From contig DYEU01000008.1 of assembly GCA_020725555.1 (NCBI GenBank), positions 1-58,398 of the forward strand: DNA of 58,398 nucleotides. Reading direction: 5' to 3'. A model generated the notes under the pieces. The model did not search any database, was not told the origin of the DNA, and was given only the letters and a program-made list of their open reading frames with translations. This document shows, in pieces, positions 348 to 23,854 of this stretch. The position numbers and the translations under genes are program-made. Each line of letters starts with the position of its first letter. The stretch's first letter is position 1. The stretch is from Desulfatibacillum sp. Lineage in GTDB: Bacteria; Desulfobacterota; Desulfobacteria; Desulfobacterales; SpSt-501.

Positions 348-794
348 TCACTTCAGATCTCGAAAATTGAACTGCCCCTCTTTGGGATTGAGGATCATCT
401 CCTTGATCGCATCGCGGATGCGGCGGATCTGAGCCAGTTTCTCCTCCTCCGAGCCCTCGACGGAGGCCGGGTCGGGGAAGGGGATGTGCCAACGCCGGGT
501 GATGCCGGGGAAGAGCGGACATTCCCCTTCGCTCTCGCTGCAGACGGTGATGACATGTTCGAAAAGCCGACCCTGCTTGTATAACTCGAACACGCTTTGG
601 GGCTTCTTGCCCGAGAGGTCGATCCCCTCTTCCTTCATCGCTTCGACGACCAGAGGATGGACCCGCTCCGCCGGCTCGAAGCCGGCGCTTTCGACATGGA
701 AATCCTCACCGCCGAATTTTTTAAGATAGGCCTCGGCGATCTGGCTCCGGCCGCTGTTGTGGCGGCAGATGAACAGGATCGTGTGTTTGGCCAC
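348..794 (-). CDS. arsC: arsenate reductase ArsC (thioredoxin-coupled, LMW-PTP fold)
   Basis: A 148-residue protein of the low-molecular-weight phosphatase fold that reduces arsenate to arsenite. The P-loop CRHNSGRS starts at Cys10. Cys85 and Cys92, seven apart, match the two resolving cysteines of thioredoxin-dependent ArsC, so the redox relay looks complete. The DP pair (FPDP) supplies the general acid. Cys15 of the classical P-loop is Gly here, as in many stand-alone members. The start is GTG at 794, preceded by a GGGGGAG ribosome binding site. It is the last gene of the operon that begins near 9.8 kb and follows the PhoU-ArsC gene by only about 20 bases. No arsenite exporter (ArsB/Acr3) follows within the window. 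Confidence 0.9.
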   Translation of the reverse strand: MAKHTILFICRHNSGRSQIAEAYLKKFGGEDFHVESAGFEPAERVHPLVVEAMKEEGIDLSGKKPQSVFELYKQGRLFEHVITVCSESEGECPLFPGITRRWHIPFPDPASVEGSEEEKLAQIRRIRDAIKEMILNPKEGQFNFRDLK

Positions 795-813: not shown

Positions 814-1962
814 TCAGACACACCCCGCGGTGCGGGTCCCCATCCCCGGCCACGGCGGCAAGGCATTCGACACCCACTGCTCGATCCGCCGCCGAATGTC
901 ATCCCGGATTTCACGGAACCGCGCAAGCCGGGCCTCCCGCTCGCCCGTGAAGGTCGCCGGGTCGGGGACATCCCAATTCAACTCCTCCTTCACGCCGATG
1001 AAGGGTGGACACTTCTCGGCGCTCACCCCGTCGCAGATCCGGATCACATAGGAAAAGGGGTGGCCGGAGCGGGAGACGTCAAACACATCGCGCGGCACGG
1101 CACCGGAGATGTCGATTCCCACCTCCTGCATCACCTCCACCGCCAGGGGATGGAGGGTCCCGGGCTGCAGCCCGGCACTCTCGGCGGAAATGCGGTCGCC
1201 GTACAGGTGATTGATCCAGCCGGCCGCCATTTGACTGCGCGCGCTGTTATGGACGCATACGACCAGCACCCGAAGCGGCCCCGCCTCCACGGTCTCACGG
1301 TACTCCCGCAGACGGTGGCGCACGATTTCCCCCAGCACCATGTAGAGCACATGCTTGGCGATGTTGGCCGCATGATCGGCCAGCCGCTCGAGATGCTGCA
1401 CGATCGCCAGCAGGGCGAAATAGCTGCGCGCCCGCTGCGGATCGTTCAAAATGGCCTCCTGCAACCCGGCGACGAGTGATGTGCCCTGAACGTCGACGCG
1501 ATCGTCGGCCATCCAGATTTCGGTTGCCTGGCGATGATCGCGATGGAAAAACGCATGCAGGCTGAGTTCCAGGTTTTTCTGGATCTCCCCCGTCATTGGA
1601 CGCAGCCCGGCGTCAAATCGTGAGACGGCACTCGGCTCCATTTCATGGACCCGCTTGGCGACCGCCGCGGCAAGATCGCCGATCCGCTCCAGATCCCGGT
1701 TGGCCTTGGTCGTCGCCACCAGGAACCGCATTTCATCGGCATAGGGCTGGTGCAAGGTCATCACCTTGAGACAGGCCTCTTCGAGACGAACCTCCAGCCG
1801 GTTGATCTCGATCTCCTGCCGGAGAACCTCGCGCGCGGCATTTTCGTCGGCCTGGACGACGGCGGCCATGGCCCGCCGCACGTTGGCGAGAACGGCTTCC
1901 GACAGCTCATAGAGCATGGTGTGGACGGCTTCGATTTCCGAGCGGTAACGCCGGGGCAACAT
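814..1962 (-). CDS. PhoU-ArsC fusion: phosphate-signalling PhoU domain joined to an arsenate reductase domain
   Basis: One 382-residue frame with two domains. Residues 1-220 are PhoU: two three-helix repeats, each with the metal-site helix (DLERIGDLAAAVAKR near 90-104 and HLERLADHAANIAKH near 190-204). Residues 229-370 are an ArsC/LMW-PTP domain with P-loop CVHNSARSQ at Cys236 and resolving cysteines Cys310 and Cys318. These are eight apart, one more than usual. PhoU normally binds PstB and the PhoR sensor to damp phosphate uptake; ArsC reduces arsenate. The start is ATG 1962 after GAGGAATG. There is no frameshift or stop between the domains, so the fusion is read directly from the sequence. 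It is co-directional with pstSCAB upstream and arsC downstream. The function of the joined protein is inference: it may couple arsenate detection or removal to control of the Pst transporter. Confidence 0.93.
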   Translation of the reverse strand: MLPRRYRSEIEAVHTMLYELSEAVLANVRRAMAAVVQADENAAREVLRQEIEINRLEVRLEEACLKVMTLHQPYADEMRFLVATTKANRDLERIGDLAAAVAKRVHEMEPSAVSRFDAGLRPMTGEIQKNLELSLHAFFHRDHRQATEIWMADDRVDVQGTSLVAGLQEAILNDPQRARSYFALLAIVQHLERLADHAANIAKHVLYMVLGEIVRHRLREYRETVEAGPLRVLVVCVHNSARSQMAAGWINHLYGDRISAESAGLQPGTLHPLAVEVMQEVGIDISGAVPRDVFDVSRSGHPFSYVIRICDGVSAEKCPPFIGVKEELNWDVPDPATFTGEREARLARFREIRDDIRRRIEQWVSNALPPWPGMGTRTAGCV

Positions 1963-2076: not shown

Positions 2077-2394
2077 TCACTTGGCCTTGAGGTAGTCGTT
2101 GATCGTCGCTGAGTCCGGTGCTTTGATCGTCATGCCGTTCGGGCCCGCCCCCGGCCGGACGACTTGCTGAACCAGTTCGCCGTGCTTGCGGAACTCTTCA
2201 AGCTCCTTCGCCCCTTCCCGGAAAACCCAAAGACGTCCGTCTTGCACCTGGGTGACGAAGCCGGGCTTGTCATAGGACACCGGGGCGCCTGCTGCCGCTC
2301 CGGATGGGGTTTGGCCGGCGGTTTGGGAGCAGCCGGTTGAAATGGCGATCATCCCCGCCAACAGGATCGCGGCCATCGTGAGTGGTGCTTTCAT
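2077..2394 (-). CDS. small predicted lipoprotein between pstB and phoU-arsC
   Basis: A 105-residue protein with a lysine-led hydrophobic signal (MKAPLTMAAILLAG) and a lipobox-like end, STGC, with Cys22 as the likely lipidated residue. The mature part is short, mixed in charge and contains QVQDGRLWVFREGAKELEEF. I recognise no family. The start ATG 2394 has a reasonable AGGAGAT-like site upstream (CGAAAGGAGATCGATTC). Its place inside the ars-pst operon, 48 bases downstream of pstB, suggests a role at the envelope in phosphate or arsenate uptake, but nothing in the sequence proves that. Confidence 0.75.
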   Translation of the reverse strand: MKAPLTMAAILLAGMIAISTGCSQTAGQTPSGAAAGAPVSYDKPGFVTQVQDGRLWVFREGAKELEEFRKHGELVQQVVRPGAGPNGMTIKAPDSATINDYLKAK

Positions 2395-2442: not shown

Positions 2443-3333
2443 TCATCCGAAGCGGCCGGTGACATAATCCAGGGTTTCCGCCAAGTGGGGTTTCTGAAAA
2501 ATGGTCTCGGTGGGGCCGTATTCCACCAGGTGGCCCAAGTACATGAAGGCCGTGTAATCGCTGGTGCGCGAGGCCTGCTGCATGTTGTGCGTCACGATCA
2601 GAATCGTGTAGTCGCCCTTCAATTCCTGAATCAGGTCCTCGATCTTGTTCGTGGCGATCGGGTCCAGGGCCGAGCAGGGCTCGTCCATCAAGAGGACTTC
2701 CGGCTCTGAGGCGATCGCCCGCGCCAAACACAGCCGCTGCTGCTGGCCCCCGGAGAGCCCCAACGCGCTCTCGTGAAGACGGTCCTTGACCTCGTTCCAC
2801 AGGGCGGCCGCCTTGAGGCTGCGCTCGCAGACGGCATCGAGCACCTGCTTGTTCCGCTCGCCGTCGATCCGTAAGGGATACACCACATTTTCGTAGATGC
2901 TCAGCGGGAAGGGGTTGGGTTTCTGGAACACCATCCCCATGCGTTTGCGCAGCTCGATCACATCGACGGCGGGGCCGTAGATCGACTCGCCCAGCAGTCG
3001 GATGTCCCCCCGGATACGCACGCCGCTGATCAGGTCGTTGATCCGGTTGACGGATCGCAGCAGGGTGGACTTGCCGCAGCCGGAGGGGCCGATCAGCGCC
3101 GTGATCTTGCCTTTCGGAATGTTCATCGAAATGTCGAACAGGGCCTGGGACTGGCCGTAGAAAAACGAAAATTCCCGCATCTCCAGGACGGCCGGCTCTT
3201 CCTTCACCTGGGGGTGGGTTTCGGTTTCAAACCGCTGCCCCGAGGCGATCGCCGCCAGGCGGCTTTCTCCGGACGGCGAGGTCGATAGGGGTTTCGATTC
3301 CCCCGGGCCCGGCCGATTGAGTGCTGTACCCAT
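2443..3333 (-). CDS. pstB: phosphate ABC transporter ATPase PstB
   Basis: ATPase of the high-affinity phosphate importer. It has Walker [11 protein letters not shown]-loop region VFQKPNPFP (typical of PstB), signature LSGGQQQR, Walker B VLLMDEP with SALDP, and H-loop VTHN. The length is 296 residues, about 40 more than E. coli PstB because of an N-terminal extension. The frame stays open further upstream, but the start chosen is ATG 3333, directly preceded by a near-perfect TAAGGAGGTT site and 15 bases after the pstA stop codon. Confidence 0.95.
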
Positions 3334-3347
3334 CGGGACGAACCTCC

Positions 3348-5117
3348 TTAAAAAACGGATGAGGCAAACTTGCGGCGCAAGCGGGACCTCAGGTACACAC
3401 CGATCGTGTTCAGCAGAAAAATGATCACAATGAGCAAGAGCGTGGTGGTCAGCACCATGGGCTTGGCCGCCTCGCTGTTTTGGCTCTGAAAGCCGAGATC
3501 GTAAATGTAAAACCCCAAGTGCATGAAACTGCGCTCGAGATGCACGTAGGGAAAGTGGCCATCGATCGGAAGCTCGGGCGCCAGCTTGACCGCACCGACC
3601 AGCATGAGCGGAGCCACTTCGCCGGCCCCGCGGGCCATGGCGAGGATCATGCCCGTCATCACCCCGGGCATGGCCCGGGGGAGCACGATCCGGCGAATCG
3701 TCTGCCACTTGCTTGCGCCGCAGGCATAGGAGCCCTCGCGCATCGAACTCGGCACGGCCGCCAAGGCCTCTTCGGTGGCGACGATGACCACGGGCAGCGT
3801 CAGCAGCGCGAGGGTCAACGAGGCCCACAGGATGCCGCCGGTGCCGAAGGTCGGGCTCGGCAGCTTGGCCGCGAAAAACAGTTCGTCGATGCGGGCGCCG
3901 ATGATGTAGGAAAAGAACCCCAGGCCGAACACGCCGAACACGATGCTGGGCACCCCGGCCAGGTTGTTGATGGCGATGCGCACGGAGCTGACCAGCGGTC
4001 CGGATTTGGCGTATTCCCGCAGATACAGCGCCGCCAGCACCCCGAAGGGGACCACGGCGATGGACATCAGCAGCGTCATCACGACCGTTCCGAAAATCGC
4101 CGGGAACACCCCGCCTTCGCTGTTCGCCTCGCGAGGATCGTCGTAGAGAAATTCCCCCCAGCGCGACAGATAGATCCGCCATTTGTCGAGCGTTCCCAGG
4201 CGGTTGGCCGGGTATCCGCGCACGATTTCATCGAGCGCGAGGCTTTTTTCGCGGCCGTCGGCGGTCAGCACCTGAATTTGGAACCGGGCGTTTTCCTTGC
4301 GCAGCTCCTGAATCGAGCGCTGGATGATCTCGAATTCCTTCTGCAGCTCGGCCTCGGTCGCGGCATGGATGCGGGACTGCTCGCGCCACGGTTCCGATTG
4401 CCTGCCGAAGCGCAACTCGACCTCCCGCAGCCGCAGACGCGATTGCTCCAGGCGGTAGTTGACGTCCCCGATGGCGTGTTTTTCCAACTTCCGCGCCTCC
4501 CCCCAGCGGCTGCGGGCTTCGGGATGATGTTTCTCGAAAAGGCCCCAGACCGCGGCCGGATCGTTCGCCACCGGCACGGAGTCGATCAGGAAGGCTTTGG
4601 GTTCCCCGTAGAACCGCCCCCAGGCCTGACGCTCGAAGATCAGCGCCCACGGCGGCTGCGTTTCCCCGCCGGGGGCGATCTCGAAATCGCTCACCCACGT
4701 AAAATGTTCGTTGGTGAGCTCGTAATTGCCGGTTCGGATCAGCCGCCGGTGAGAGACCCCGTCGTTTTCGGCAAGCCGTTTGCGCACCGTCGCTTGAATC
4801 TCCACGGGCAGGTTCCCGATCACCGACGGCTCCGGGCGGTAGGAATCCTCTCGGGTCACCTCGCCCAGGAAGACGGCCCCCGACACGGTCCGGACGCTGA
4901 CGAGCGGCCGGGGCCAGAAGGTCAAGATCCCCTGAAACAGGATGAAGGCCAGCAAGGCGGCAATCATCGCCAGACAGACGATCATCGCCCCACCGGACAA
5001 CCAGATCGGGGCGGTGCCCCGGGCGAGAAGGCTGAGGCCTCTCGAGCGCCGCCGCAGCCCTTCTGTGGAGGGGGCAGCCCCCGCAAGCGATGGGTTCGCC
5101 GCGGCTTGCAGGTTCAT
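3348..5117 (-). CDS. pstA: phosphate ABC transporter permease PstA, long form
   Basis: A 589-residue permease, about twice E. coli PstA. One transmembrane segment (residues about 40-64) is followed by a large soluble insert of roughly 260 residues containing a charged coiled-coil-like stretch ([17 protein letters not shown] region). The usual PstA membrane core with the EAA loop ([19 protein letters not shown]) comes next. I recall long PstA proteins carrying an N-terminal domain filed as DUF3333; this looks like one. The start ATG 5117 overlaps the pstC stop (ATGA), so translation is probably coupled. Confidence 0.93.
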
Positions 5118-7768
5118 AGTTCAAAAGCCTTCCTGCGGAAACGTTGGCGCACGGTTTCCGCCACGGTGTTCACCAGAAAGGTCATGACGAACAGCGCCAG
5201 CGCCGCCAGAAACAGCATGCGGAAGTGGGTCGAGTCCTTGACCGCCTCCGGCAACTCCACGGCGATGTTGGCCGAGAGCGTGCGGAAGCCGTTAAAGATG
5301 TTCCAATCCATCAAGGGGGTGTTCCCGGCGGCCATGAGGACGATCATGGTTTCACCCACCGCGCGGCCGAAGCCGATCATGACGGCGGAGAAAAGGCCGC
5401 TGGCGGCGGTGGGGATGACGATCCGCACCGCGGTCTGCCAGGGCGTGGCGCCGGCGGCGAGCGAGGCGCTGCGCAGGTGGTCCGGGACGGCGGAGAGCGC
5501 ATCTTCGGAGATGGTGAAAATGATGGGGATGATGGCAAAGCCCATGATGAAACCGACGATCAGGGAGTTGCGCTGCACGTAGGTGTCGAGGAAGCCGCCG
5601 CGCGGATCAAGGCTCCACAGGCCAAACGGCCCGTGAGCCAAGAGGTAGGAGACGCCTAACGAGGCCGCCAGAACGGCTGCGGCGGCAACCAGGTATTTCG
5701 CGAGCTCTGCCGCGGCCACCCGGGTGGCCGACCACCCGGCGTAACGCCGCCAGAGGATCGGATTGATGTGGCGGGTCAACAACACGGCGGCCAGCAGCGA
5801 TGTGGACGGCAGCAGCAGAAACAGCCACCCGCCGGTCCCGCTGCCGCTGCGGCCGGAAAGCCAGGCTTTGATGTCGCCCGCGAACAGCAGATTCTCCACA
5901 AGGGGGCCGACCGCGAAGGCGAGCGCCACTCCGAGTGCTGCGGCAACGGCGATGCCCGCCCATCGCAGTCGATCCCAGCGCCGGAGGGACTGCGGCGGAA
6001 GCAGCTGCCACAGGTATCCCCCCAGCAGCACGGAAAACGGCACCGTGGCGAAAACGCAAAGCACCTGGGGAACGACGGTCTCAACGAACGGGGCCACGAT
6101 GATGGCCGCCAGAAAGCCGAGGACCACGCTGGGGAGGCTGGCCATCATCTCGATCGTGGTCTTGACCCTCCCCCGAAGGTTGATGCTCATCAGCTCGCTT
6201 GCGTACACCGCGGCCAGCAGCGCCAGCGGCACACCGAACAGCATCGAGTAGAAGGTGGCCTTGATCGTTCCGAAAATCAGGGGCAGCAGGCCGTACTTGG
6301 GCTCGAAGTCGTCCGTGCCGCTCGAGGACTGCCAAACGTGCTGGGGCCGATCGTAGCCTTCGTACCACACGGGCAGAAAAATCGCGGCCGGCGAAGATTC
6401 CGGATGCGGAATCCCCAGGGTCCAGAGGGTGCTCGCGGGGCCGGCGATCGCCGCAAGCGCGTCGTCTTTCGGGGAGAGCGCCAAAAGCTGCAGCGACCCG
6501 CCGCCCGGCGTCCCGGGGAAGGCGACCTCGCCCAGCAGCCGATTGCTCGTGACGTGGAACAGGCGGGCGCGGCCGTCGCCATAACCGGCCGCGAGAATCC
6601 GGGTGCGGGCAGAGGCCTTGAGCGCCGTGACTTCGGCGGCTCCGCCCGGCAGCTCGTGCGCCAAGACCGTTTTCGCCCCGTCCGCGGTCCCGGCGCCCCC
6701 CTCCGGCTTGATGCGAAACCAGACTCGTACCCGCCCGGCGCTGTCGCCGGAGACCAGCGAGGTCTTTCCGATCAGGGTCGTCAGCGCCGACAGCCGGTGC
6801 TCGGGCTCGGGGACCAAATCGATCTCCTCGACGACGAAGGATTGCTCCGGATTGCGGGTATCCAGACGGATCACCCGGCCGCTCTCCCAGGCGATGAAGG
6901 CATTGTCCCCCAGTCCGGTGATCACCAGCCAGGACGGTTCGGGTTCGCCGGCCGGGTCATCGAGTTTCATCCGGCCGCCGCTCAACTCCAGGGTGACCTT
7001 TCCGGTCAGGATGTTTTTCCGCGTGGAGACCTCGTCGATATGAAAGGTTCGGCTTTGGGTGATGGCCGCCAGGACGGGGCCGGAGGACTTCATGGATACG
7101 TCGATCAGGCGTATGGGGACTCCGTCCTCGAGCACGACCGGCTCTTTCAGGTCGAGGAGCAAGGTTTGCAGCCGGTACTGGTTTTCGGGGGTGCGCTCGA
7201 GCATGCCGGATTCAAAGGGGAGGGCCGTGCCGGCTTCGAGGCCGCGAACCGTTTCCGGGACCGTCTCCGGTTCCAAAAAGCGGGTGCTGAAGTCCACGGT
7301 GCCGTGCTGGACGCTTCCGTCGGCGAACCCGAACGCCACAATCCCATCCCGGATGGCCAAAGCGGCCGCGGTGGGCCGCCGATCGCCGAAGGGGTGCATC
7401 TGATGGATTTCGCTCCCGGTGTCCAGCCGAAAGATCCGGATCACCCCGTCGTCGCCGAGGGTCCATCCCATGGTGGTGTATTCGTTGAGCGCTATATTCC
7501 GTGCCCCCTCGACCTTCGGCGTCAGGTTCACCGTCCGGAGCGTCTCGATGGCCGGCGCCTGGAACAGAGGGACGACAACGGCCACCAAGAAAAAACAGAC
7601 CAGAAGAACAGCGGCGATGATTCCGACACCGCCCATCGTGATCAACACGCCGGCCGTACGATTCCACACTTTGACCGACGGGAGGGTCTTGCGCCGGCGC
7701 GACCTTCCGGTAAAGGACCTCTGCGGAGCGGCTGGGGGCTGCATGGCATCGTCCGTGCTGCCGGGCAC
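5114..7768 (-). CDS. pstC: phosphate ABC transporter permease PstC, long form with periplasmic insert
   Basis: An 884-residue permease. After a first membrane segment (near residues 40-65) comes a periplasmic stretch of about 400 residues rich in beta repeats resembling a beta-propeller (IRIFRLDTGSEIH, GRVRVWFRI, GRARLFHV). The PstC core follows, with an extra membrane block and the EAA loop (EDALSAVPDHLRSASLAAGA). Long PstC forms with such inserts occur in many proteobacteria. The frame starts at GTG 7768; an in-frame ATG at 7744 is an alternative, and neither has an ideal ribosome binding site. It overlaps pstA by four bases. Confidence 0.92.
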   Translation of the reverse strand: MPGSTDDAMQPPAAPQRSFTGRSRRRKTLPSVKVWNRTAGVLITMGGVGIIAAVLLVCFFLVAVVVPLFQAPAIETLRTVNLTPKVEGARNIALNEYTTMGWTLGDDGVIRIFRLDTGSEIHQMHPFGDRRPTAAALAIRDGIVAFGFADGSVQHGTVDFSTRFLEPETVPETVRGLEAGTALPFESGMLERTPENQYRLQTLLLDLKEPVVLEDGVPIRLIDVSMKSSGPVLAAITQSRTFHIDEVSTRKNILTGKVTLELSGGRMKLDDPAGEPEPSWLVITGLGDNAFIAWESGRVIRLDTRNPEQSFVVEEIDLVPEPEHRLSALTTLIGKTSLVSGDSAGRVRVWFRIKPEGGAGTADGAKTVLAHELPGGAAEVTALKASARTRILAAGYGDGRARLFHVTSNRLLGEVAFPGTPGGGSLQLLALSPKDDALAAIAGPASTLWTLGIPHPESSPAAIFLPVWYEGYDRPQHVWQSSSGTDDFEPKYGLLPLIFGTIKATFYSMLFGVPLALLAAVYASELMSINLRGRVKTTIEMMASLPSVVLGFLAAIIVAPFVETVVPQVLCVFATVPFSVLLGGYLWQLLPPQSLRRWDRLRWAGIAVAAALGVALAFAVGPLVENLLFAGDIKAWLSGRSGSGTGGWLFLLLPSTSLLAAVLLTRHINPILWRRYAGWSATRVAAAELAKYLVAAAAVLAASLGVSYLLAHGPFGLWSLDPRGGFLDTYVQRNSLIVGFIMGFAIIPIIFTISEDALSAVPDHLRSASLAAGATPWQTAVRIVIPTAASGLFSAVMIGFGRAVGETMIVLMAAGNTPLMDWNIFNGFRTLSANIAVELPEAVKDSTHFRMLFLAALALFVMTFLVNTVAETVRQRFRRKAFEL

Positions 7769-7831: not shown

Positions 7832-8827
7832 TTAAAAGGTTGCCTGAATGCCGACCTTCTTTAAGGCTTCCCGGCAGATATCGGCCGGAAGGGGGTAGTA
7901 GCCGTCCTTCACCACGTCGGCCTGACCCTGCTTGCTGAAAACGTAACGGATGAACTCGCGGCGCAGGGGGTCGAGCTGGGTGCCGGGCTTGAAGTTGACA
8001 TAGATGTAGAGCATGCGCGCGAGAGGGTACTCGCCCGTGTAGGCGTTTTCCGGGACGGCCGCGATGAATTTCTGGCCGGTCTTGGCGGAAAGCGCCACGG
8101 CGCGGACGTCTGCGGTCTTGTACCCGATGCCGCTGTAGCCGATGGCGTACTTGTCGCTGGCGACCCCCTGGACGACCGAGGAGGAGCCCGGTTGCTCCTT
8201 GACCTCGTCTTTGTAGTCGCCTTTGAAGAGCGCGTGTTCCTTGAAGTAGCCGTAGGTGCCGGATGCGGAGTTCCGCCCGTACAAGCTGATCGGACGGTTG
8301 GCCCAATCGCCGGTCAGGCCGAGCTGCCCCCAGCGCGTGATCGCCTCGGGGTGCCCGCCTTTGCGGTTCTTCGAGAACACCGCATCCACCTGAGGCAGGG
8401 ACATGCCCTGGATGGGGTTGTCCTTGTGGACGTAGACCGCCAGCATGTCGATCGCGGTGGGAAGCTCGGTGGGCTTGTACCCGAATCGTTTTTCAAACGC
8501 ATCGATCTCCGCGCTCTTCATCTCCCGGCTCATCGGGCCGAAATGAGCGGTCCCGCTGACGAGCGCCGGCGGGGCGGTGGAGGATCCTTTCCCTTCGATT
8601 TCGATCTGGACGTTGGGGTACATTTTCAAGAAGCCCTCCGCCCAGAGGGTCATCAGATTGTTCATGGTGTCCGACCCGATGCTCTTGAGGTTGCCGGAGA
8701 CGCCCCCAACCGGCTTGTACTCGGGGAGCTTGGGGTCGATCGCGACCTGCGCGGAGGCCGCTCCGGCCCAGGACAACGCGGCCAGTATGAGCAGTGCGGC
8801 CATTGCCTTGAGGACAGTGGGCTTCAT
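7832..8827 (-). CDS. pstS: phosphate-binding periplasmic protein PstS
   Basis: A 331-residue secreted solute-binding protein. The signal peptide is MKPTVLKAMAALLILAALSW, cleaved near ASAQ. The PstS-type phosphate site elements are visible: SDTMNNLM near the N-terminus, GKGSSTAPPAL, and YGRNSASGTYGYF. The start is ATG 8827, preceded by AAGGAG; a longer in-frame start at 8872 would put 15 extra residues before a normal signal peptide and is less likely. It lies 57 bases after arsR-arsC and is followed by pstC. Confidence 0.94.
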   Translation of the reverse strand: MKPTVLKAMAALLILAALSWAGAASAQVAIDPKLPEYKPVGGVSGNLKSIGSDTMNNLMTLWAEGFLKMYPNVQIEIEGKGSSTAPPALVSGTAHFGPMSREMKSAEIDAFEKRFGYKPTELPTAIDMLAVYVHKDNPIQGMSLPQVDAVFSKNRKGGHPEAITRWGQLGLTGDWANRPISLYGRNSASGTYGYFKEHALFKGDYKDEVKEQPGSSSVVQGVASDKYAIGYSGIGYKTADVRAVALSAKTGQKFIAAVPENAYTGEYPLARMLYIYVNFKPGTQLDPLRREFIRYVFSKQGQADVVKDGYYPLPADICREALKKVGIQATF

Positions 8828-8884
8828 GGTCTTTCTCCTTCTGTGCTGTGGGTTTCCGCAACGGGATGGCATCGAAACGCATGC

Positions 8885-9814
8885 CTATCCGTTGCGCGCT
8901 GTTTTCGTGCGCGGCGCCGGCGTGGCCGGGGGCCGGCCCGCTCGCCGCTTCCTGTGCTTCGGCTGTTTTGCGCCGCGCGGGGGCGACGCCGGTTCGCCGA
9001 TCCAGTTCAAGATCTTGGTCATTAGCTTGTCCCGGACCCGCCGGAACACCGCAAGTCGCTGCGTTTTGCTGCCTTTCGCCTCAAGGGGATCCTCCAGAGG
9101 CCAGTGGATTCTTCGGGTCACGCCTGGAAATACCGGTGTCTGCTCTTCGGCCATGGGGCAGACGGTGATCAGGTAGTCGAAATGCATCCGGCCCATCAGC
9201 GACATCACGCTTTTGGGAGCCTGCCGGCTGATGTCCACTCCGACTTCCCGCATCACCTCGACGGCCATCAGCGGAATGGGACGTGGGGATACCCCGGCGC
9301 TGTAGACCTCGAAGCGATGGCCGCCGTGTTGTCGCAAGATGCCCTCGGCCATCTGACTGCGGCAGGCGTTGGCCTTGCAAAGAAACAACACTTTTTGGCG
9401 ATCCTCCTCGGGCGCTGGGGCCGGCCGCAACGTCAGGGCGACCGCTCTCCGGGCCGCGTCCGCTTCAAGCAGCGGGTCATCGGAAGTGGCATCGCGAAGC
9501 CACTGCAGCGCGCCGTGCACCACCCTGTCCTCCGCGGCATCCGGGACATGGAAGTAGCGCCATCGGCCGACCCTTCGAGAAACGACGAGCCCGGTGTCTT
9601 CCAGCACGTGCAGATGCTTGGACATGGTCGAGGGGGCGAGGCCGAACATTTGGGTCAACTGCTGCAAATTGAGCGGATCCTCGGCCACGGCCGAAAGAAT
9701 CCGGATGCGCACCCGATCGGACAAGGCCTTGGCGATCGATGCGATGCGATGCACGGAGCTGGCCGTCGCCCCCCGGATACCTGCCCGACGAGCTTCGTTT
9801 CGTGTCTTGGTCAT
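8885..9814 (-). CDS. ArsR-ArsC fusion: winged-helix arsenic repressor joined to an ArsC-type domain
   Basis: About 309 residues. Residues 20-95 form an ArsR winged helix: DRVRIRILSAV, recognition helix GLAPSTMSKHLHVLE, wing RRVGRWRYFHV. The usual ELCVCDL metal motif of ArsR is missing (here PLNLQQLTQMFG). Residues 140-285 are an ArsC/LMW-PTP domain with P-loop CKANACRSQMAEG (Cys146, Cys151) and Cys219, but position +7 from Cys219, where the second resolving cysteine should be, is Thr226. So the domain may not reduce arsenate by the standard thioredoxin relay and could serve as the sensor. The start is ATG 9814 (a TTG at 9832 is possible). It ends in TAG. It is the first gene of the ars-pst operon and probably autoregulates the promoter at 9955-9982. 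Confidence 0.9.
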   Translation of the reverse strand: MTKTRNEARRAGIRGATASSVHRIASIAKALSDRVRIRILSAVAEDPLNLQQLTQMFGLAPSTMSKHLHVLEDTGLVVSRRVGRWRYFHVPDAAEDRVVHGALQWLRDATSDDPLLEADAARRAVALTLRPAPAPEEDRQKVLFLCKANACRSQMAEGILRQHGGHRFEVYSAGVSPRPIPLMAVEVMREVGVDISRQAPKSVMSLMGRMHFDYLITVCPMAEEQTPVFPGVTRRIHWPLEDPLEAKGSKTQRLAVFRRVRDKLMTKILNWIGEPASPPRGAKQPKHRKRRAGRPPATPAPRTKTARNG

Positions 9815-9954
9815 CGCCCGTTCATCCCGCAATCGGTGTGATGGAGGCGAGCCAGCGGGCTCCGATCCGTCAGTCGGCCCCGCGTGACCAACGGCCCTGT
9901 AGCCCCCTCCCGCGATTCACCCGCCCCCACAAGGCGGGCTTGAGATGGGTCGAT

Positions 9955-9982
9955 ACTATATTTCGCGAAACTACGAAGTCAA
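9955..9982 (-). promoter_or_regulatory. promoter of the ars-pst operon with palindromic candidate ArsR operator
   Basis: On the minus strand TTGACT (9982-9977) and TATAGT (9960-9955) are separated by 16 bases, a good sigma-70-like pair. The spacer contains the perfect 10-bp palindrome TTTCGCGAAA (9961-9970). The half ATTTCGCG recurs at 9997-10004, just upstream of the -35 box. A dimeric repressor bound here would block RNA polymerase. The match to the ArsR-ArsC product is inferred from position only. Confidence 0.6.
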
Positions 9983-10004
9983 TTCAAAACCCCCGGATTT
10001 CGCG

Positions 10005-10958
10005 TTAGAAGTTGGTTAGGGAAATGCACTCAGGATGTGGGTTTCCGGCGCACGATCGGCGCACCGGCATGTCCAAAGGCATCCCCCTTGGGCATGCTGG
10101 AAAGGCGGTTGAACGGCTGAAGAACCGGGGTCGCGTCGGGTTGAAGAGGCGCCGCCATCCGATGGGACTATAGGAAGCCCCATCGGCGCCGCCGCAAATT
10201 GCCGTCAACGGAAGGCGTTGCGACGCCTGGCCATTCCATCGACCGGTGTGTCGCGGGCATCGGGCCATCCGTCATGGCCGCGGCCTCCCCCCCCCCTTTG
10301 CGGGAGGTCGGCGGAACGCTCAACCCTTCATCCCGGCCAACCGCGAAAGCCCGGAGGCGATTGGGCGGTCGTGGCCCTCGCGTGAGGCCGAGCGCGGTGA
10401 CATCCTCAGGATGTCGGCTTTGAGCGCTTGAAGGGAGGGGGCGTCAAAGGACGAAGCGCTTCTTGCCCCGAGCCATGAGCGGCGGCATCGGAACAACCGC
10501 CCCGCCGGCTGAAGGATGACCCTTGCGCCCATCGGGCCGGCGCGGCTTGGCTCTGGGGGGGCGCGCTGCCTCGGCGGGTTGCGGGGGCCTCGGTGACCCG
10601 CCCCACAAGATCCGATGAAAGGGACAAACGAACAGGATGGGGCGGCCCAGCGCCTGCCTTACAGCGCCCTCCCCCCCCCACAGCAGGTCTTGCCGCGAAG
10701 AGCGGCCTCCTCGCACGGGGTTCAAGGCAGCGATTGGCGAGCGCAAGGCGATAGGCCCCGGGCGGACGCGGCGGGTCCGAATGCGGATCGTTCATCGCCC
10801 GTTCAGCGCATGCGGCGGCCGGAGGCCTTCTTTGCCTTCCAGGATCGCTGCATGCGCCGCTTCAGACACCGCAATGAGGCTTCGTCAACGGCCGAAGCCT
10901 CCGAGGCGAGGCTTCGCCCTGTGCGCGATCACCGCCGCAACGCCCTGCGCGGCGCCGC
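10005..10958. other. 954-bp region without a supportable gene
   Basis: Between the ars-pst promoter and the encapsulin gene. It is GC-rich with long C runs (near 10288 and 10672) and several overlapping open frames on both strands, but none has a ribosome binding site or a translation I recognise. A small inverted repeat, CATCCTCAGGATG, lies near 10400. I take it to be decayed or non-coding sequence; the 3' ends of the encapsulin transcript and the 5' end of the ars-pst transcript should lie at its edges. Confidence 0.4.
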
Positions 10959-11777
10959 TCACTTGACCGCCGTGTAGTTGATCACCGCCGCCGGTTCGAG
11001 GACCCGGAATGTGAAGGATTCGGTGAAATACAGCTTGACTTTGGCGGGCGTGTGGCTTTCATAGCCGATCGCCAGGTCCTGCCCGAGGATCAGTTGAAAG
11101 TCTCCCCCGCGCCGCGACACCATGTAGGCCTCATTCTCAAACTCCCCGCTGAGATAGGGGCTGAGCAGCACGGCCCCTCCCAAAACGGACTCCGCCTGCA
11201 TCTTCACGGGATAGCCTTGGACATGCGCCGACATCCGGCTCCACAGCTTGGGCCCCACGATAAAACTGTAAGGGCCGTCGATGGAGCGGCTGGTGAAAAC
11301 CGTCACGCCCTCGGCGATGCCTTCGAGAAGCTGCTCGGGTTTCGCACCGATGGTCAGGCAGTCGTTTCCGGCACACGACTTCAGCCCTCGGATGTTGGCC
11401 TCCGGCAGGCCGTGATAAATGGTCTTCTCTTCGAAAAGCGCAATTTTGCGGGCGGCATCCTCCATCGCGGAAAGGTCCACATCCTTTGCGCCGCGCACCA
11501 CGTTGTCCATCTCCTGAATGTCGAGATCGAAAGGAACCCGCACCTCGACCACTTGATGGACCTTGCGAATGCCGTAGAGCGGCCCATCGTTGGGTTGCTT
11601 CTCCGGATAGAGAAGTCGGCCTTCCGGCACGCCCGGAAAGTCGGTCCCCATCGGTCCGGTCACGTCCAGGAATTTGCGCCCCGAAAGCATCGCCCTGAGA
11701 CTGCGCGTCGCCTGGGCGTCGATCTCGGTCCAGGCTTCCATCGGGATGGGGGCCAGATCGCGTTTGAGAATGTCCAT
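10959..11777 (-). CDS. encapsulin nanocompartment shell protein (family 1)
   Basis: A 272-residue HK97-fold shell protein that assembles into a protein cage. The N-terminus MDILKRDLAPIPMEAWTEID is typical of linocin/encapsulin family 1, as are GRKFLDVTGPMGTDFPGVPE, the E-loop region and the C-terminal strand ESFTFRVLEPAA. The length matches the family (about 265-285). The start is ATG 11777 after CAGGAGGTTGTTT; the longer frame from 11834 has no support. It lies 67 bases downstream of the hemerythrin-like gene, which is the probable cargo. Confidence 0.93.
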   Translation of the reverse strand: MDILKRDLAPIPMEAWTEIDAQATRSLRAMLSGRKFLDVTGPMGTDFPGVPEGRLLYPEKQPNDGPLYGIRKVHQVVEVRVPFDLDIQEMDNVVRGAKDVDLSAMEDAARKIALFEEKTIYHGLPEANIRGLKSCAGNDCLTIGAKPEQLLEGIAEGVTVFTSRSIDGPYSFIVGPKLWSRMSAHVQGYPVKMQAESVLGGAVLLSPYLSGEFENEAYMVSRRGGDFQLILGQDLAIGYESHTPAKVKLYFTESFTFRVLEPAAVINYTAVK

Positions 11778-11844
11778 AAACAACCTCCTGCGTCGGCTTG
11801 ATGGGATGGGTGCGGATGCATCCGTCAAATCCACACTGTTGCGA

Positions 11845-12399
11845 TTACCCTTTGAGGCTGCCGATGCCGAGCCCCACGGCGGGGTTCGACGGCGCTTGCG
11901 CCGTGGTGAGCGGCTCCGGTTTGAAGGCCTTGGCCGGTTTGGATCGTTTGGCGGAAAGCGTCGGCGGCAGCTCCGGCGGAACCGCCCCCAGCAGCTTGTC
12001 CTTGGCTTCGGCGAAAAGCCGGCCGAGCGTGTTCAGGTCCTCGGCGGTGAACAACTGCCGGGCCATCGGGAAAATCTGGGCTTCCTCCTCATCCAGATGG
12101 TGGGTCGTGTATTCCCCCAGGCCTTCCATTTTGATGGAAAACCGCTCGTGGTCGCGGGGGAAGCGCTCGGCGTCCTTGATGATCAGCTCGATGATGTGAT
12201 GCTCGTTGACCGCTTCCAGCGCATCGCGGCGCGCTTGAGCGAAGCCTTCAAGCAGATCGTAAAAATACTTTTCCTCCATGGTGTGGTGCACGACCAGGTT
12301 GCGAAGGAACTGATCAAAAACGTCCGGGTCGGCTTCGGACTGCTGGTAGAGTTGTCTTAGGTCGGCGTGGTGGCTGACGAGGGCATCGATCACATCCAT
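11845..12399 (-). CDS. hemerythrin-like encapsulin cargo protein
   Basis: 184 residues. Residues 1-145 are a four-helix hemerythrin/HHE domain with candidate di-iron ligands in HHADLRQ, HHTMEEKYFY, EHHIIE and THHLDEEE. A flexible proline- and lysine-rich linker follows. The last residues, NPAVGLGIGSLKG, match the encapsulin targeting-peptide pattern (a hydrophobic pair then GSL+). Together with the shell gene next door this predicts an iron- or oxygen-binding cargo packed in the cage, probably for oxidative or nitrosative stress. The start ATG 12399 is preceded by CCGGAGGACGT. Hemerythrin cargo in encapsulins is already known, so the pairing is recognised rather than new. Confidence 0.9.
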   Translation of the reverse strand: MDVIDALVSHHADLRQLYQQSEADPDVFDQFLRNLVVHHTMEEKYFYDLLEGFAQARRDALEAVNEHHIIELIIKDAERFPRDHERFSIKMEGLGEYTTHHLDEEEAQIFPMARQLFTAEDLNTLGRLFAEAKDKLLGAVPPELPPTLSAKRSKPAKAFKPEPLTTAQAPSNPAVGLGIGSLKG

Positions 12400-16498: not shown

Positions 16499-16921
16499 TC
16501 AGCGGAGGGAAACGACCAGCCGCTCCTCTTCCACCGCGACCGGGTAGACCGGGACCGGCCCCGTGGGTGGGCCGTGAATTTTGCGGCCGGCGTAGGTGTA
16601 GGTGGAGCGGCCCACGCTGCAGCACTGGACCGTGTGCGTTCCCGGCACGGGGTCGAGGCGGCGATGCCCGATGTGCGAGCAACGGTTCTGAAAGGCATGA
16701 AATGCCCCGTCCTCGCCGTGGATGACCAGCACGCGCACCGGAAGCCCCCCGCCCTCCAGCCGCAGGGCGCCGCCGGGCCTTGCGAGCTCGGGGGCCCGTT
16801 TCCGATCGATCGTGATCCGGCCGTTCTCAAAACGCCATGCGAGGGGGTCGGGGGGCCGGGGAGTCGCCGGGATGCCAAAGAGGCGTTGCAAAAAGCCCCG
16901 TTTTAAGAAGGTGACCTTCAT
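16499..16921 (-). CDS. Rieske-type [2Fe-2S] domain protein with a changed cluster ligand
   Basis: 140 residues. The first half-motif is normal (NRCSHIGHRR: Cys81, His83). The second, normally C-P-x-H-G, reads CCSVG: Cys100 is present but the His position is Val103. So one of the four Rieske ligands appears lost, unless Cys101 or another residue takes over. The rest of the fold is present, including the following Tyr-rich strand (RSTYTYAGRKIHG) and a C-terminal YPVAVEEERLVVSL strand. The start is ATG 16921. It is divergent from fetA and upstream of the flavoprotein, with which it may share an electron-transfer job; that is inference. Confidence 0.75.
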   Translation of the reverse strand: MKVTFLKRGFLQRLFGIPATPRPPDPLAWRFENGRITIDRKRAPELARPGGALRLEGGGLPVRVLVIHGEDGAFHAFQNRCSHIGHRRLDPVPGTHTVQCCSVGRSTYTYAGRKIHGPPTGPVPVYPVAVEEERLVVSLR

Positions 16922-17204
16922 CCCCGCCTCACCGCGCAAGGAGCCCGCCTCGTCTCCCCCTCCGCCAGGGATAAGGCCTTCCCTCGCCGCACGGGACGAA
17001 ACGGACTCGCACGGGGAACCCATCCAGAAAAACGCGGGCGGCGAACCCCCGCCAAGGTCACTCTACCGGCGGGCCGCCCCATGGTCAACCGCTTGTCTTT
17101 TCGCGGCAGCTTTGGCAATCTCCAGACCTGCACTCCCCAGCCGGCAGCAGCCGACCCGACCGGCCGGGGTCGCCCCTTCCGTAAAGCCGGACGAAGAGGC
17201 CCTG

Positions 17205-17918
17205 ATGAGCCCGAGCCGTGGGCAGACCCCCGGACCCCGTCTTCCCCTCAAGCTCGAGGCCCGCGGACTGGGCCGCGAGGTGACTGGAAAGCCCCTCCTG
17301 CATGACATCCACCTCGGGGTGCAGCAGGGCGAGGTGCTGGCCGTGATCGGGCCGAGCGGCTCCGGGAAATCTTCCCTGCTGCGCCTGCTCAACCGCCTCG
17401 ATGAGCCGACGGCAGGCACGGTGTATCTGAACGGTCTCGATTACCGCGAAATCCCTCCTCGGGAGCTCAGGCGGCGGGTCGGGATGGTCATGCAGGCGCC
17501 CCATCTCTTCCCCGGCACCGTCTCGGAAAACGTCGGCTTCGGCCCACGCCAGCGCAATGCGCCGCTTTCGACCGGCCAAATCGAAGCCCTCCTCGAGCGG
17601 GTGGGCCTTGCCGGCTACGCCCCCCGCGATGCGGGGCATCTTTCCGGCGGGGAGGCCCAACGCGTCTCGCTCGCACGGACGCTCGCGAACGATCCCGAGG
17701 TGCTCCTCTTGGATGAGCCCACCTCGGCGCTGGACGACGAGGCCGAGCGGGGGATCGAAGCGCTGGTTCTCGAAATCATCCGCGAACGCTCGATGACCTG
17801 CATCATCGTGACCCACGATCTGCCCCAGGCCGCCCGCCTGGCCGGCCGCGTCGTGATCCTCGAGGCGGGCCGGATCAAAGCGGTCGGCACGCCGCAGGAG
17901 CTGCTCCATGGGAAATGA
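17205..17918 (+). CDS. fetA: FetA-type ABC transporter ATPase
   Basis: 237 residues: Walker A GPSGSGKSS, Q-loop VMQAPHLFPGTV, signature LSGGEAQR, Walker B VLLLDEPTSALD, H-loop VTHD. The sequence and its partner match the FetAB (YbbL-YbbM) type implicated in iron export and oxidative-stress tolerance in E. coli. The frame is open far upstream; ATG 17205, preceded by GAAGAGGCCCTG, gives a normal N-terminus. It overlaps the start of fetB by 11 bases. The 283 bases upstream, shared with the Rieske gene, hold no gene and should contain both promoters. Confidence 0.88.
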   Translation: MSPSRGQTPGPRLPLKLEARGLGREVTGKPLLHDIHLGVQQGEVLAVIGPSGSGKSSLLRLLNRLDEPTAGTVYLNGLDYREIPPRELRRRVGMVMQAPHLFPGTVSENVGFGPRQRNAPLSTGQIEALLERVGLAGYAPRDAGHLSGGEAQRVSLARTLANDPEVLLLDEPTSALDDEAERGIEALVLEIIRERSMTCIIVTHDLPQAARLAGRVVILEAGRIKAVGTPQELLHGK

Positions 17919-18717
17919 GCTCGCCCTCGCCGGTTGCGAGGACTTGACGGGGGTTCTGCTTCAGGCCGGCGGAGCGGCCGCTCTCTGCCTCGCCGTGATG
18001 GGGCTCTGCCGAAGGGCCGCCGTGCGCGTGGAGCGCGAAACGGTCGTTTCGCTCCTTCGCGGGTTTCTGCAAATCGCCCTGGTCGGCGTCGTCCTCGCGC
18101 TGGTGCTGCACCGCGGGTTCGGGGTGGGGATCCTGATCCTGCTCGCGATGACGATCGCGGCGGCCGCGATCGCCTCGCGGCGCACGGGGGGCATCCCCGG
18201 CGCCTTCCGGGTCTGCTTCCTTGCGGTGGCCGCCGGGTCGGGCACGACGATCGCGGCGATGGCCGCGATCGGGGCCGTGTCTGCGGAGCTCGCCACCCTC
18301 GTGCCGGTCGGCAGCATGGTGATCGCGAGCGCCATGACCTCGGCTTCCCAGGCGGCCGAGCGCTTTCGCGCCGAGGTCGCCGCCCGGAAGGGTCTCGTCG
18401 AGGCGGCCCTTGCGCTCGGCGCAGCACCGGCGAAGGCGGTCGCGGCCCAGGTCCGAAGCGCCGTCTACGCCAGCCTCATCCCGCGGCTCGACGCGCTCAA
18501 GTCGCTCGGCATCGTCTGGGTGCCGGGGATGATGGCGGGCATGATCGTCTCGGGGGCGAACCCGGTCTTCGCCGGCATCTACCAGTTCATCGTGATGGCC
18601 ATGATCTTTGCGGCATCCGCCATCACGGCGCTGGTTGCGGCGCTCCTTCTGCGCACGCGCATCTTCACCCCCGCCGAACAGCTCTCCCTGCAGCGGGTGG
18701 GCGCCACCCGGGAGTGA
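17908..18717 (+). CDS. fetB: FetB-type ABC transporter permease (UPF0014)
   Basis: 269 residues with about seven membrane segments and the family's SRRTGG and LGAAPAKAVAAQVRSAVYASLIPRLD segments, followed by GIVWVPGMMAGMIVSGANP, the hallmark of YbbM/FetB. It forms the membrane half of the exporter encoded with fetA. The N-terminus extends slightly before the first helix (MGNELALAGCEDLT). Confidence 0.9.
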   Translation: MGNELALAGCEDLTGVLLQAGGAAALCLAVMGLCRRAAVRVERETVVSLLRGFLQIALVGVVLALVLHRGFGVGILILLAMTIAAAAIASRRTGGIPGAFRVCFLAVAAGSGTTIAAMAAIGAVSAELATLVPVGSMVIASAMTSASQAAERFRAEVAARKGLVEAALALGAAPAKAVAAQVRSAVYASLIPRLDALKSLGIVWVPGMMAGMIVSGANPVFAGIYQFIVMAMIFAASAITALVAALLLRTRIFTPAEQLSLQRVGATRE

Positions 18718-18772
18718 GGCCTCCTGCCGGTCGAGCCGGACCCGGGAGGCAGACCCCACGTAATGATATCAG

Positions 18773-18785
18773 AATGGACGTCCCT
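18773..18785 (-). repeat. 13-nt motif copy 4 (single)
   Basis: AATGGACGTCCCT, the inverse orientation of the motif with one change at the end, placed 14 bases before the TetR operator and 55 bases after fetB. It is the only copy with no inverted partner nearby. Confidence 0.75.
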
Positions 18786-18798
18786 CATTTTTTTATTT

Positions 18799-18819
18799 TG
18801 GACTGGACAGTCCAGTCCA
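18799..18819 (+). promoter_or_regulatory. palindromic operator upstream of the TetR gene
   Basis: Arms TGGACTGGA (18799-18807) and TCCAGTCCA (18811-18819) are perfect inverted repeats around CAG. It lies 22 bases before the repressor's start, with an AT-rich stretch (TCATTTTTTTATTTTG) just upstream that could hold the promoter. Size and place fit a TetR-dimer site for autoregulation and control of the efflux operon. Confidence 0.7.
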
Positions 18820-18841
18820 GACAGGGTAGAAGGCGCCCGCC

Positions 18842-19459
18842 ATGACGGGACAGGCGAACGGCAGGACCGCGGCGACGCGGCCGCGCATCGTGAGGGCGGC
18901 CTGGGAGGCCTTCCGCGAGAGGGGCTACCGCGCAAGCCTCGAGGAGGTCGCCGCACGCGCCGGGGTTGTGCGGCAGACGCTCTACAACCACTTCCCGGGG
19001 AAAAAGCTCCTCTTCGGCGAGGTGGTGCGGCACGCCACGCGCTCGATCCTGGTCACCCTCGAAGGCGGGGAGTCCCTGCGCGAAACCCTCATCGCCTTCG
19101 GCCGCGCGCTGCGCGAGCGGGTGCTCAGCCCGGACGGCATCGCGGTCTACCGCACCCTCGTCGCCGAGGCGGCCACCTTCCCGGAGCTCGCCGGCCATTT
19201 CTTCGCCGAGGGGCCGGTCGCCACGCGGGAGCGGCTGGCGGAGGTCCTCGCGGCGGCGATGAGGAAAGGCCTGCTCCGCCGCGACGACCCGGCCTTCGCG
19301 GCCGAGATGCTGATCGCCATGCTGATCGAGTTCGACCGGCTGCGCCGGCTGCTCGCCCCCGCCGGGAAGCACCCCGCCGGGGACCACAAAACCGAAGCGG
19401 TGGTGGACTGCTTTTTGCGCGCGTTCGCCCCCCGAGATTCCGGCAAAAAGAGAACCTAA
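18842..19459 (+). CDS. TetR/AcrR family repressor of the efflux operon
   Basis: 205 residues. The N-terminal helix-turn-helix reads YRASLEEVAARAGVVRQTLYNHFPGKKLLF (residues about 33-62). The C-terminal half resembles the AefR-type TetR ligand domain (YRTLVAEAATFPELAGHFF). It is followed by the efflux genes with only three bases between them, so it is cotranscribed. Its operator candidate is at 18799-18819. Confidence 0.9.
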   Translation: MTGQANGRTAATRPRIVRAAWEAFRERGYRASLEEVAARAGVVRQTLYNHFPGKKLLFGEVVRHATRSILVTLEGGESLRETLIAFGRALRERVLSPDGIAVYRTLVAEAATFPELAGHFFAEGPVATRERLAEVLAAAMRKGLLRRDDPAFAAEMLIAMLIEFDRLRRLLAPAGKHPAGDHKTEAVVDCFLRAFAPRDSGKKRT

Positions 19460-19462
19460 GGA

Positions 19463-20662: not shown

Positions 20663-20674
20663 AAGGGGGCGGCA

Positions 20675-23600: not shown

Positions 23601-23854
23601 TCAGGCCGATCGTGATGACCTCGCTCGCCTTCGGCTTCGGGGTGCTGCCGCTTGCGCTCGCGACCGGGGCCGGCTCGGGCGCCCAGGGGGCGATCGGGAT
23701 TGCGGTCTTAGGCGGCATGGTGACCTCGACGGTGCTGGTCGTGTTCTTCGCCCCGCTGTTTTACGTGATGATCACCCGCGTGTTCGGCCGGCGCGGCCGA
23801 CCGATCTCCTCCGCCCCCGCGGCCGCCGCGGTTGAGGGAAAGGTCTATGAGTAG
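20675..23854 (+). CDS. RND efflux pump, HAE1 (AcrB-type)
   Basis: 1059 residues, the normal length. It begins MLSRFFLDRPVFAWVIAVAM as in AcrB/MexB. The proton-relay aspartates are in GLLVDDAIVVVENVERLM, and the second half has LTAKNAILIVQFAKA. There are two large periplasmic loops and 12 membrane segments. The family exports hydrophobic drugs, bile salts or solvents; the substrate here is not visible. It ends with TAG overlapping the next start (ATGAGTAG). Confidence 0.95.
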   Translation: MLSRFFLDRPVFAWVIAVAMMAAGALAIYRLPVAQYPPIAPPSIAIDAFFPGASAETVENTVTQIIEQKMTGLDNMLYLSGTSSSSGASRIELTFAPGTDPDIAWAKVQNKLQLALASLPEVVQRQGVKVSKSTRNYLMIVGLVSEDGRLSGDDLRDFAQSNLEKILSRVPGVGEVENFGTQYAMRVWIDPDRLTSFQLTLEEVILALRAYNVEVSAGQFGGMPATPGQQMNAAIVVQHLLQTPEEFAAIPVRIRPDGSVVRIRDLGRTELGTERYDVVALYNGRPTAALAIRQAAGANALETADNVKSKLAEMSRYFPPGVKVIYPYDTTPFTQVAIREVVKTLVEAVILVFLIMWLFLGTFRATFIPTITVPVVLLGTFAVLALFGFSINMLTMFAMVLAIGLLVDDAIVVVENVERLMREEGLPPKKAAARSMDQITPALIGIGVVLAAVFLPMAFFGGSTGVIYRQFSLTVAAAMLLSVVVALILTPVLCAQLLKPVAGGHESASGAIWLLRPFFLWFDRSFFRLRDLYVRAVGHVLARRLRYVFAYLLIVAALGALFFRMPTAYLPEEDQGILMVQAVLPPGATLEQTQAVLERVLAHFQEKEPEAVESFLGVAGVGFSGQGQNVGLGFTKLRDWDLRRRPDLRVKAVAARAMAAFSRIPGAMVFAFPPPAVIELGNATGFDFQLQDRNGLGHAQLMAARNQILGMAARDPRLRGVRPNGMEDAAEYRIDVDWDKAGALGLSIATVHTTLSAAFGGAYVNDFIQAGRVKKVFVQADAPHRMLPSDLEKIHVRNREGKMVPFSSFAAGRWVEGSPQLQRYNGFPSINLWGEPAPGYSTGEAMAAMEEIVSRLPQNVGYDWTGISYQERMARAQAPLLYAFSIFVIFLCLAALYESWPVPIAILLTFPLGVIGGVIASSAKGLPSDVYFQIGMLTTLGLTAKNAILIVQFAKARAEAGAGLIAATLEGSKLRLRPIVMTSLAFGFGVLPLALATGAGSGAQGAIGIAVLGGMVTSTVLVVFFAPLFYVMITRVFGRRGRPISSAPAAAAVEGKVYE

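Follow-up and report, generated by a model that had tools for sequence, protein, structure and literature searches.

Arsenate mimics phosphate and gains entry to cells in this way. How a cell can keep high-affinity phosphate uptake going when arsenate is around is an open question of practical weight. The Pst system imports phosphate and, unavoidably, some arsenate, and PhoU is its regulator. Here we ask why, in a genome of Desulfatibacillum sp., a PhoU should be joined to an arsenate reductase (ArsC) in a single protein. The window that we analysed is one entire contig (C1, 58,398 bases), base 1 being the contig end.

A single frame encodes PhoU and ArsC

The fusion is encoded on the minus strand at 814..1962 (382 aa, ATG start), as shown by the ORF call, by Pfam and NCBIfam matches and by orthologous fusions in other genomes; the plus strand contains stops over the same positions. 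The PhoU part (aa 5-214, 1321..1950 on the minus strand) matched the NCBIfam profile TIGR02135 (phoU_full) over its whole length (model positions 2-212 of 212) and above its cut-off (162.5 vs 130.25 bits). Pfam matched PhoU in two stretches (114.3 bits, cut-off 23.5). A linker (aa 216-230, 1273..1317, same strand) leads to the ArsC part, of the LMW-PTP fold (aa 231-365, 868..1272, same strand), which Pfam LMWPc matched over aa 232-363 (56.7 bits, cut-off 23.2). The NCBIfam profile TIGR02691 (arsC_pI258) matched aa 234-362 under its cut-off (85.8 vs 174.3 bits), as it did for the stand-alone ArsC of the window (108.6 vs 174.3 bits).

The ArsC part has C236, R242, C310, C318 and D334, and with them a CX5RS P-loop and two further relay cysteines. 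The fold, this P-loop and the three relay cysteines are common to the thioredoxin-coupled ArsC (pI258, B. subtilis and the Deinococcus ArsC2, 8p5n). The fused ArsC of the window differs from these in its joining to PhoU, in falling under the TIGR02691 cut-off and in the spacing from Cys310 to Cys318, which at 8 residues is one longer than in 8p5n. In a set of 31 ArsC domains all three cysteines were kept in 4/4 PhoU-ArsC and 24/24 stand-alone ArsC, and the third was absent in 3/3 ArsR-ArsC.

The four known fusions have both E-x-x-x-D motifs (E92/D96 and E192/D196), which we take to be the metal motif of PhoU. Position 203 is Lys in the three orthologous fusions and Glu in the distant one (G288). 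The same position is Glu in 40/40 aligned unfused PhoU and in 5/5 aligned PDB PhoU chains (the latter by eye), making Glu203 a conserved residue of this alignment rather than a formal criterion of TIGR02135. Its change to Lys may alter the function of PhoU, docking included. Loss of Asn100 was considered as a further signature of the fusion, but this position is variable among the PDB PhoU and the idea was given up. The window protein thus has the full-length fold and the two motifs of the TIGR02135 PhoU (4q25, 1t72), and differs from them by the added C-terminal ArsC domain and by Lys for Glu203. An earlier sequence-only reading had described one open frame, without giving its strand, a complete PhoU with both metal helices, and an ArsC with Cys236, Cys310 and Cys318. 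The frame, the two motifs and the numbering of the cysteines were all correct; "complete" holds for the length, the TIGR02135 score and the motifs of PhoU, but not for Glu203.

Predicted structures agreed with the profiles. The best PDB relatives of the two halves by phmmer were 8p5n and the Pseudomonas PhoU 4q25. The AlphaFold2 model of the fusion (mean pLDDT 91.4, pTM 0.69) was matched by Foldseek to the same PhoU (4q25, TMt 0.93) and to two ArsC, 8p5n (TMt 0.91) and the B. subtilis 1jl3 (TMt 0.87), which places the second half of the predicted model in the ArsC fold. The short linker is probably flexible: it was modelled at very low confidence (pLDDT <50 at residues 216-225), more in keeping with a flexible tether than with domains held rigidly together. 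In the alignment behind the model (A2), however, 51 of the 55 rows are single-domain and bear no signal between the domains. These 51 are drawn from 52 single-domain rows, the PhoU of L013 being omitted and over-long ORFs, L052 and L054 having been excluded earlier.

The fusion is conserved in related genomes

We searched the order for the fusion and found matches at 1e-44 in 6 of 389 genomes, four of which have an uninterrupted fusion: the window, G003 (80% identity to the window fusion), G239 (58%) and G288 (26%). The class draw returned the same six genomes of 389. G003 is a Desulfobacterales MAG (contig CALIUY010000002.1, locus L048). The sequence-only reading would have been refuted by an assembly error; the orthologous fused frames in G003 and G239 exclude one. 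Both domains look to be under purifying selection. Between the window and its ortholog in G003 (L005), dN/dS was 0.146/1.04 (~0.14) for the PhoU part, 0.069/1.06 (~0.07) for the ArsC part and 0.381/0.93 for the 13-codon linker, values that are rough because dS is near 1. With this reservation, the ArsC part appears roughly the more constrained of the two.

We also looked for internal starts, in-frame among the 40 codons preceding the HNSARS motif, in the three orthologs. All three have a GTG at codon 214, in no case preceded by a Shine-Dalgarno-like match. Where the window has CTG at codon 218, L005 and L034 have an ATG, again without such a match. The window GTG225, near 1280, has a GGAG 12 nt upstream, and the TTG225 of L034 has a GGAGG at 2 nt; neither start is common to the orthologs. 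Hence, no conserved start with a ribosome-binding match was found near the junction in the three orthologs. Separate translation of the domains from a start near 1280, which would also have undone the sequence-only reading, has for it a weakly preceded and unconserved GTG; this makes internal translation improbable, if not strictly impossible.

Further fusions were sought more widely. The scan of genome contigs confirmed at least seven loci; among those listed, L048 is fused and the other six showed no fused ORF. In plasmids, none of 3 and none of 6 matching records covered 80% of the query. In the phylum draw (1e-44) 10 of 395 genomes matched, and the nine besides the window's own had single-domain ArsC. 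A G288-type query of the phylum (1e-30) gave 10 of 395 as well, the nine others being single-domain by match range. In the family of G288 and G239, 2 of 36 genomes matched, both by the fusions already known. A fusion could be missed in these draws, since at most four candidates per genome (phylum draw) or five (order and class draws) were scored.

The fusion lies in an arsenic-linked pst cluster

The fusion is the seventh of eight closely spaced genes, all on the minus strand, in the order arsR-arsC, pstS, pstC, pstA, pstB, a small lipoprotein gene, phoU-arsC and arsC; the close spacing suggests a single operon. The first gene (8885..9832) encodes a fusion of ArsR and ArsC. It is followed by PstS (7832..8872, TIGR02136, 241 bits), by long forms of PstC (5114..7768, 884 aa, TIGR02138, 205 bits) and PstA (3348..5117, 589 aa, TIGR00974, 245 bits), and by PstB (2443..3333, TIGR00972, 391 bits), the likely start of which is the ATG at 3333, the mechanical ORF running to 4182. 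The small lipoprotein-like protein (2077..2394) was labelled from its N-terminus by eye; it has relatives in L048 and L098, and no family match in Pfam or NCBIfam. The last gene (348..794), 19 nt downstream of the fusion, encodes a stand-alone ArsC of 148 aa with all three cysteines. The gene order, the ArsR-ArsC, the putative operator described below and the adjoining ArsC make the context of the fusion stronger than the sequence-only reading had it.

A further PhoU and a further PstB, both over their cut-offs, are encoded on another contig of the same genome (C30), and the arsenic-linked Pst is therefore an additional system. The acr3 of this genome is also on C30 (454 bits). The window itself encodes a PHO4-family (Pit-type) phosphate transporter at 45319-46290 on the minus strand. 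PstC and PstA both have long regions ahead of the permease match; the extra region of PstC gave a weak beta-propeller match (20.9 bits, cut-off 154).

A sensor-like ArsR-ArsC and its putative operator

The ArsR-ArsC has an ArsR/SmtB helix-turn-helix (HTH) by profile (NF033788, 70 vs 55 bits). In arsenite-sensing ArsR, the HTH part has a cysteine pair for As(III). The window protein has no cysteine before residue 152, nor does L048 have one in its HTH part; L055 has one and the other orthologs one or two (by eye). The third relay cysteine of the ArsC part is absent in all six ArsR-ArsC orthologs, three of them in the set of 31 domains and three read by eye, in which Thr takes its place. The ArsR-ArsC looks like a sensor.

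A sigma-70-like promoter (9953..9982, minus strand; TTGACT with TATAGT or TAGTAT) lies 122 nt before arsR-arsC, as two overlapping matches where shuffles of 9700-10900 led us to expect 0.1. Its spacer and -10 are overlapped by a palindrome, TTTCGCGAAATATAGTA (9954..9970, minus strand), the putative operator of ArsR-ArsC. We drew the pattern TTTSGCSAAATRTRRTA by eye from three such sites (window, L048 and L055). When up to one mismatch was allowed, the three genomes searched gave one site in G000, one in G003 and two in G239, each of them exact; the reversed pattern, as a control, occurred in none of the first two and twice in G239, once per strand. The count in G239 therefore means little by itself, and position carries the argument. 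The second site of G239, which had no part in making the pattern, is in the fusion cluster of that genome, 114 nt before pstS, in the gap that separates pstS from the divergent arsC.

More distant relatives provide further sites. A search of 275 genomes of the order (1e-35) gave ArsR-ArsC in six: the three with orthologous fusions, and G264, G064 and G179. In each of the latter a site with one mismatch lies 37-49 nt before arsR-arsC. The genes divergent from arsR-arsC in G064 and G179 are ArrA/ArrB-like, after the respiratory arsenate reductase (G064: ArrA 1334 bits against a cut-off of 1600 but far ahead of the 244 of the next family, ArrB 332 bits; G179: ArrB 325 bits against a cut-off of 450), and tie the regulator to arsenate through a separate gene set. 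No exact site was found in the unfused pst-arsC loci L057-L061 and L063, nor on the 8.7 kb contig of G288, the only one searched in that genome. An ArsR-ArsC without the third cysteine, with its site also found beside arrAB-like genes in two relatives, is a finding in its own right.

The cluster in relatives and the origin of the fusion

G003 has the same eight genes, and downstream of them an ArsR, in which there is a Cys-Val-Cys motif, and acr3 (TIGR00832, 376.5 bits, cut-off 282.8). The fusion of G239 follows a different and shorter set of pst genes. There, arsC and pstS are divergent, and arsR-arsC precedes pstS by about 4.7 kb. About 12 kb past this fusion, on the source contig of L055 (G239:C6:356067-357446), there is an acr3 in three pieces, apparently broken; G239 has another acr3, over the cut-off. 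The distant fusion of G288 likewise follows pstB: the only PstB match at 1e-60 is directly before it. Downstream of it is an alkaline phosphatase match far under the cut-off.

Within the order, arsC genes that are not fused recur inside pst clusters or next to them. In G264 the cluster is entire, and its regulator, Pst and lipoprotein are of the same kinds as in the window, but phoU and arsC are separate. In the loci that we read, unfused arsC lie beside phoU in G089, G081 and G028, 0.8 and 1.9 kb from it in G037 and G030, and between pstS and pstC in G024. Where unfused phoU and arsC are neighbours in the same order, the gap is 2 nt in L059, 18 nt in L058 and 48 nt in L057. In G089 and G081 the two separate genes share a frame and are divided by one stop. 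Other ArsC loci, e.g., L062, L065-L067 and L070, showed no pst cluster by the queries used. Hence, the arsenic-linked pst cluster is probably older, and the fusion a later step within it.

The three orthologous fusions form a clade in the trees of both domains (ArsC 100/100, PhoU 100/100), and the PhoU part is a long-branched paralog. The fused ArsC belong to a group of 14 rows (98/95), in which nine stand-alone ArsC come from elsewhere in the phylum; two more, including the pst-cluster ArsC of G024, are of the order. The ArsC2 nests inside the group of ArsC that neighbour phoU. We considered whether the fusion arose when the stop codon that separates phoU from a neighbouring arsC was lost; a clade of the fused ArsC with this neighbour/ArsC2 lineage was disfavoured (p-AU 0.0084, an optimistic value since the tested group was named after viewing the tree). 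The position of the G024 ArsC on the fused side of the split counts against a clean separation. A single clade with the ArsR-ArsC lineage was also disfavoured (p-AU 0.006). A separate origin of the G288 fusion is possible: grouping G288 with the other three fusions gave p-AU of 0.034 for ArsC and 0.21 for PhoU, with very long branches. The second trees omit L049 and L051-L054.

What the fusion may do

Our strongest inference is that the cluster is for taking up phosphate when arsenate is present. In these relatives of sulfate-reducing bacteria, the fusion and the arsenic-type switch are probably there to handle arsenate while it enters the cell alongside phosphate. There is, in our judgement, about an even chance that the cluster encodes an arsenic-controlled Pst importer carrying its own arsenate reductase, tethered to its PhoU. 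ArsR-ArsC would repress the cluster through the promoter palindrome, leaving the genes on when arsenic is present. PstSCAB would bring in phosphate with some arsenate, and the PhoU part would dock at PstB, as is thought for ordinary PhoU. The flexibly tethered ArsC part, judging from its residues, would then reduce the incoming arsenate by the Cys236 - Cys310 - Cys318 relay with thioredoxin. The arsenite would exit through Acr3, the gene of which adjoins the cluster in the nearest ortholog (G003). Such a fusion is a "Rosetta stone" argument that PhoU is located where the imported oxyanion meets the cytosol, and the whole has the appearance of a natural design in which a reductase sits on the importer's own regulator with an arsenic-type switch above it.

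Several observations count against this reading. The cluster of G264 is unfused, and the fusion is therefore not required; the stand-alone ArsC 19 nt downstream means that a free reductase is probably already made; the ArsC part is under the TIGR02691 cut-off; Glu203 is replaced by Lys; and the contig of G288 has no exact operator. A broader version that we hold tentatively, as possible rather than probable, has a dedicated arsenate-filtering Pst importer in which three parts derive from ArsC: the ArsR-ArsC would be a one-shot arsenate sensor, whose ArsC part could form the first Cys-Cys disulfide but has no resolving cysteine, the PhoU-ArsC a reductase or gate seated on the importer, and the free ArsC a backup. 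These parts would share one operator, which in relatives would also precede genes of arsenate respiration.

The sequence-only reading had suggested that tethering could place arsenate reduction at the mouth of the importer or, alternatively, let the redox state of ArsC signal arsenate entry to Pst. A role in arsenate entering through Pst is supported by the conservation of the fusion, the Pst and arsenic genes around it and the arsenic-type regulator; both mechanisms stay proposals. In the signalling version, arsenate turnover would oxidise the ArsC part (Cys310-Cys318 disulfide) and alter PhoU, shutting Pst import or changing Pho signalling. We find this rather doubtful. PhoU does regulate Pst, its Lys203 suggests a re-tuned core, and the other ArsC fusion of the cluster joins a repressor and is sensor-like, lacking the third cysteine in 6/6. 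The PhoU-ArsC, in contrast, keeps the three relay cysteines as do 24/24 stand-alone ArsC, which suggests full turnover, and its linker is modelled as disordered (pTM 0.69). An intact relay and the stronger constraint on the ArsC half are our grounds for favouring tethered reduction over signalling.

It is unlikely that the fusion merely fixes a 1:1 ratio of two operon proteins, with no spatial or signalling role. The unfused neighbours in L059, L058 and L057 speak for it. Against it, the fused ArsC does not simply continue the phoU-neighbour lineage (p-AU above), a second arsC is retained beside the fusion, and the fused form persists down to 58% identity. Very improbable is an ArsC part acting as a protein phosphatase (LMW-PTP) on a Pho or Pst partner instead of reducing arsenate: the Pfam family is LMWPc and the ArsC match is under the NCBIfam cut-off, but the part has two extra relay cysteines, arsenic genes surround it, and Foldseek places the ArsC 8p5n (4.9e-9) far before the phosphatases YfkJ (an LMW-PTP; 4etm, 1.1e-4) and Wzb (2wmy, 1.6e-4). 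An assembly artefact, or domains made separately from an internal start, has next to no probability, given fused frames at 80% and 58% identity in two other genomes and candidate starts that lack a Shine-Dalgarno-like match in all three orthologs (the common GTG214) or are not shared (the window GTG225 with its weak GGAG).

Comparison with known systems

We found no PhoU-ArsC fusion in the literature searched, in agreement with the sequence-only reading, which knew of no described example; subscription papers were mostly outside the scope of the search, so that this is weak evidence of novelty. Fusions of ArsC to aquaporins, ACR3 or ArsR are known from two sources (PMC12838822, PMC6514093), which cite Wu et al. 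2010 for the aquaporin-ArsC and ACR3-ArsC of actinobacteria and mycobacteria. Like the window fusion, these join an arsenate reductase domain to a component of membrane transport. As described there, they serve arsenite exit, whereas the partner in the window, PhoU, is a cytosolic regulator of phosphate/arsenate import. The actinobacterial ArsR-ArsC (PMC6514093) have the architecture of the first gene of the window cluster; the window protein differs in heading a pst cluster, in the missing third cysteine of its ArsC and in the conserved palindromic site in front.

The arsenic islands of A. tumefaciens 5A likewise have a second, arsenic-linked pst-phoU cluster under ArsR, and arsenite and deletion of arsR1 are reported to raise expression of the ars-linked pst1-phoU1 cluster (PMC7965956, PMC3834237). 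PMC3834237 mentions no fusion, and the regulator it describes differs in architecture from that of the window. In Lp. plantarum, a pstC mutation is reported to lower arsenate uptake (PMC11084836).

Elsewhere on the contig

Just upstream of the arsenic-linked cluster, at 10959-12399 on the minus strand, lies a Family 1 encapsulin shell (NF041155, 254 bits), beside a weakly PA2171-like protein (45 bits, cut-off 190) that is a possible cargo. At 16722-23854 on the plus strand, an ABC-ATPase-like frame is followed farther along by an AcrAB/MexAB-like RND efflux pair. Two adjoining proteins at 50718-53983 on the minus strand each have a MutS_V domain.
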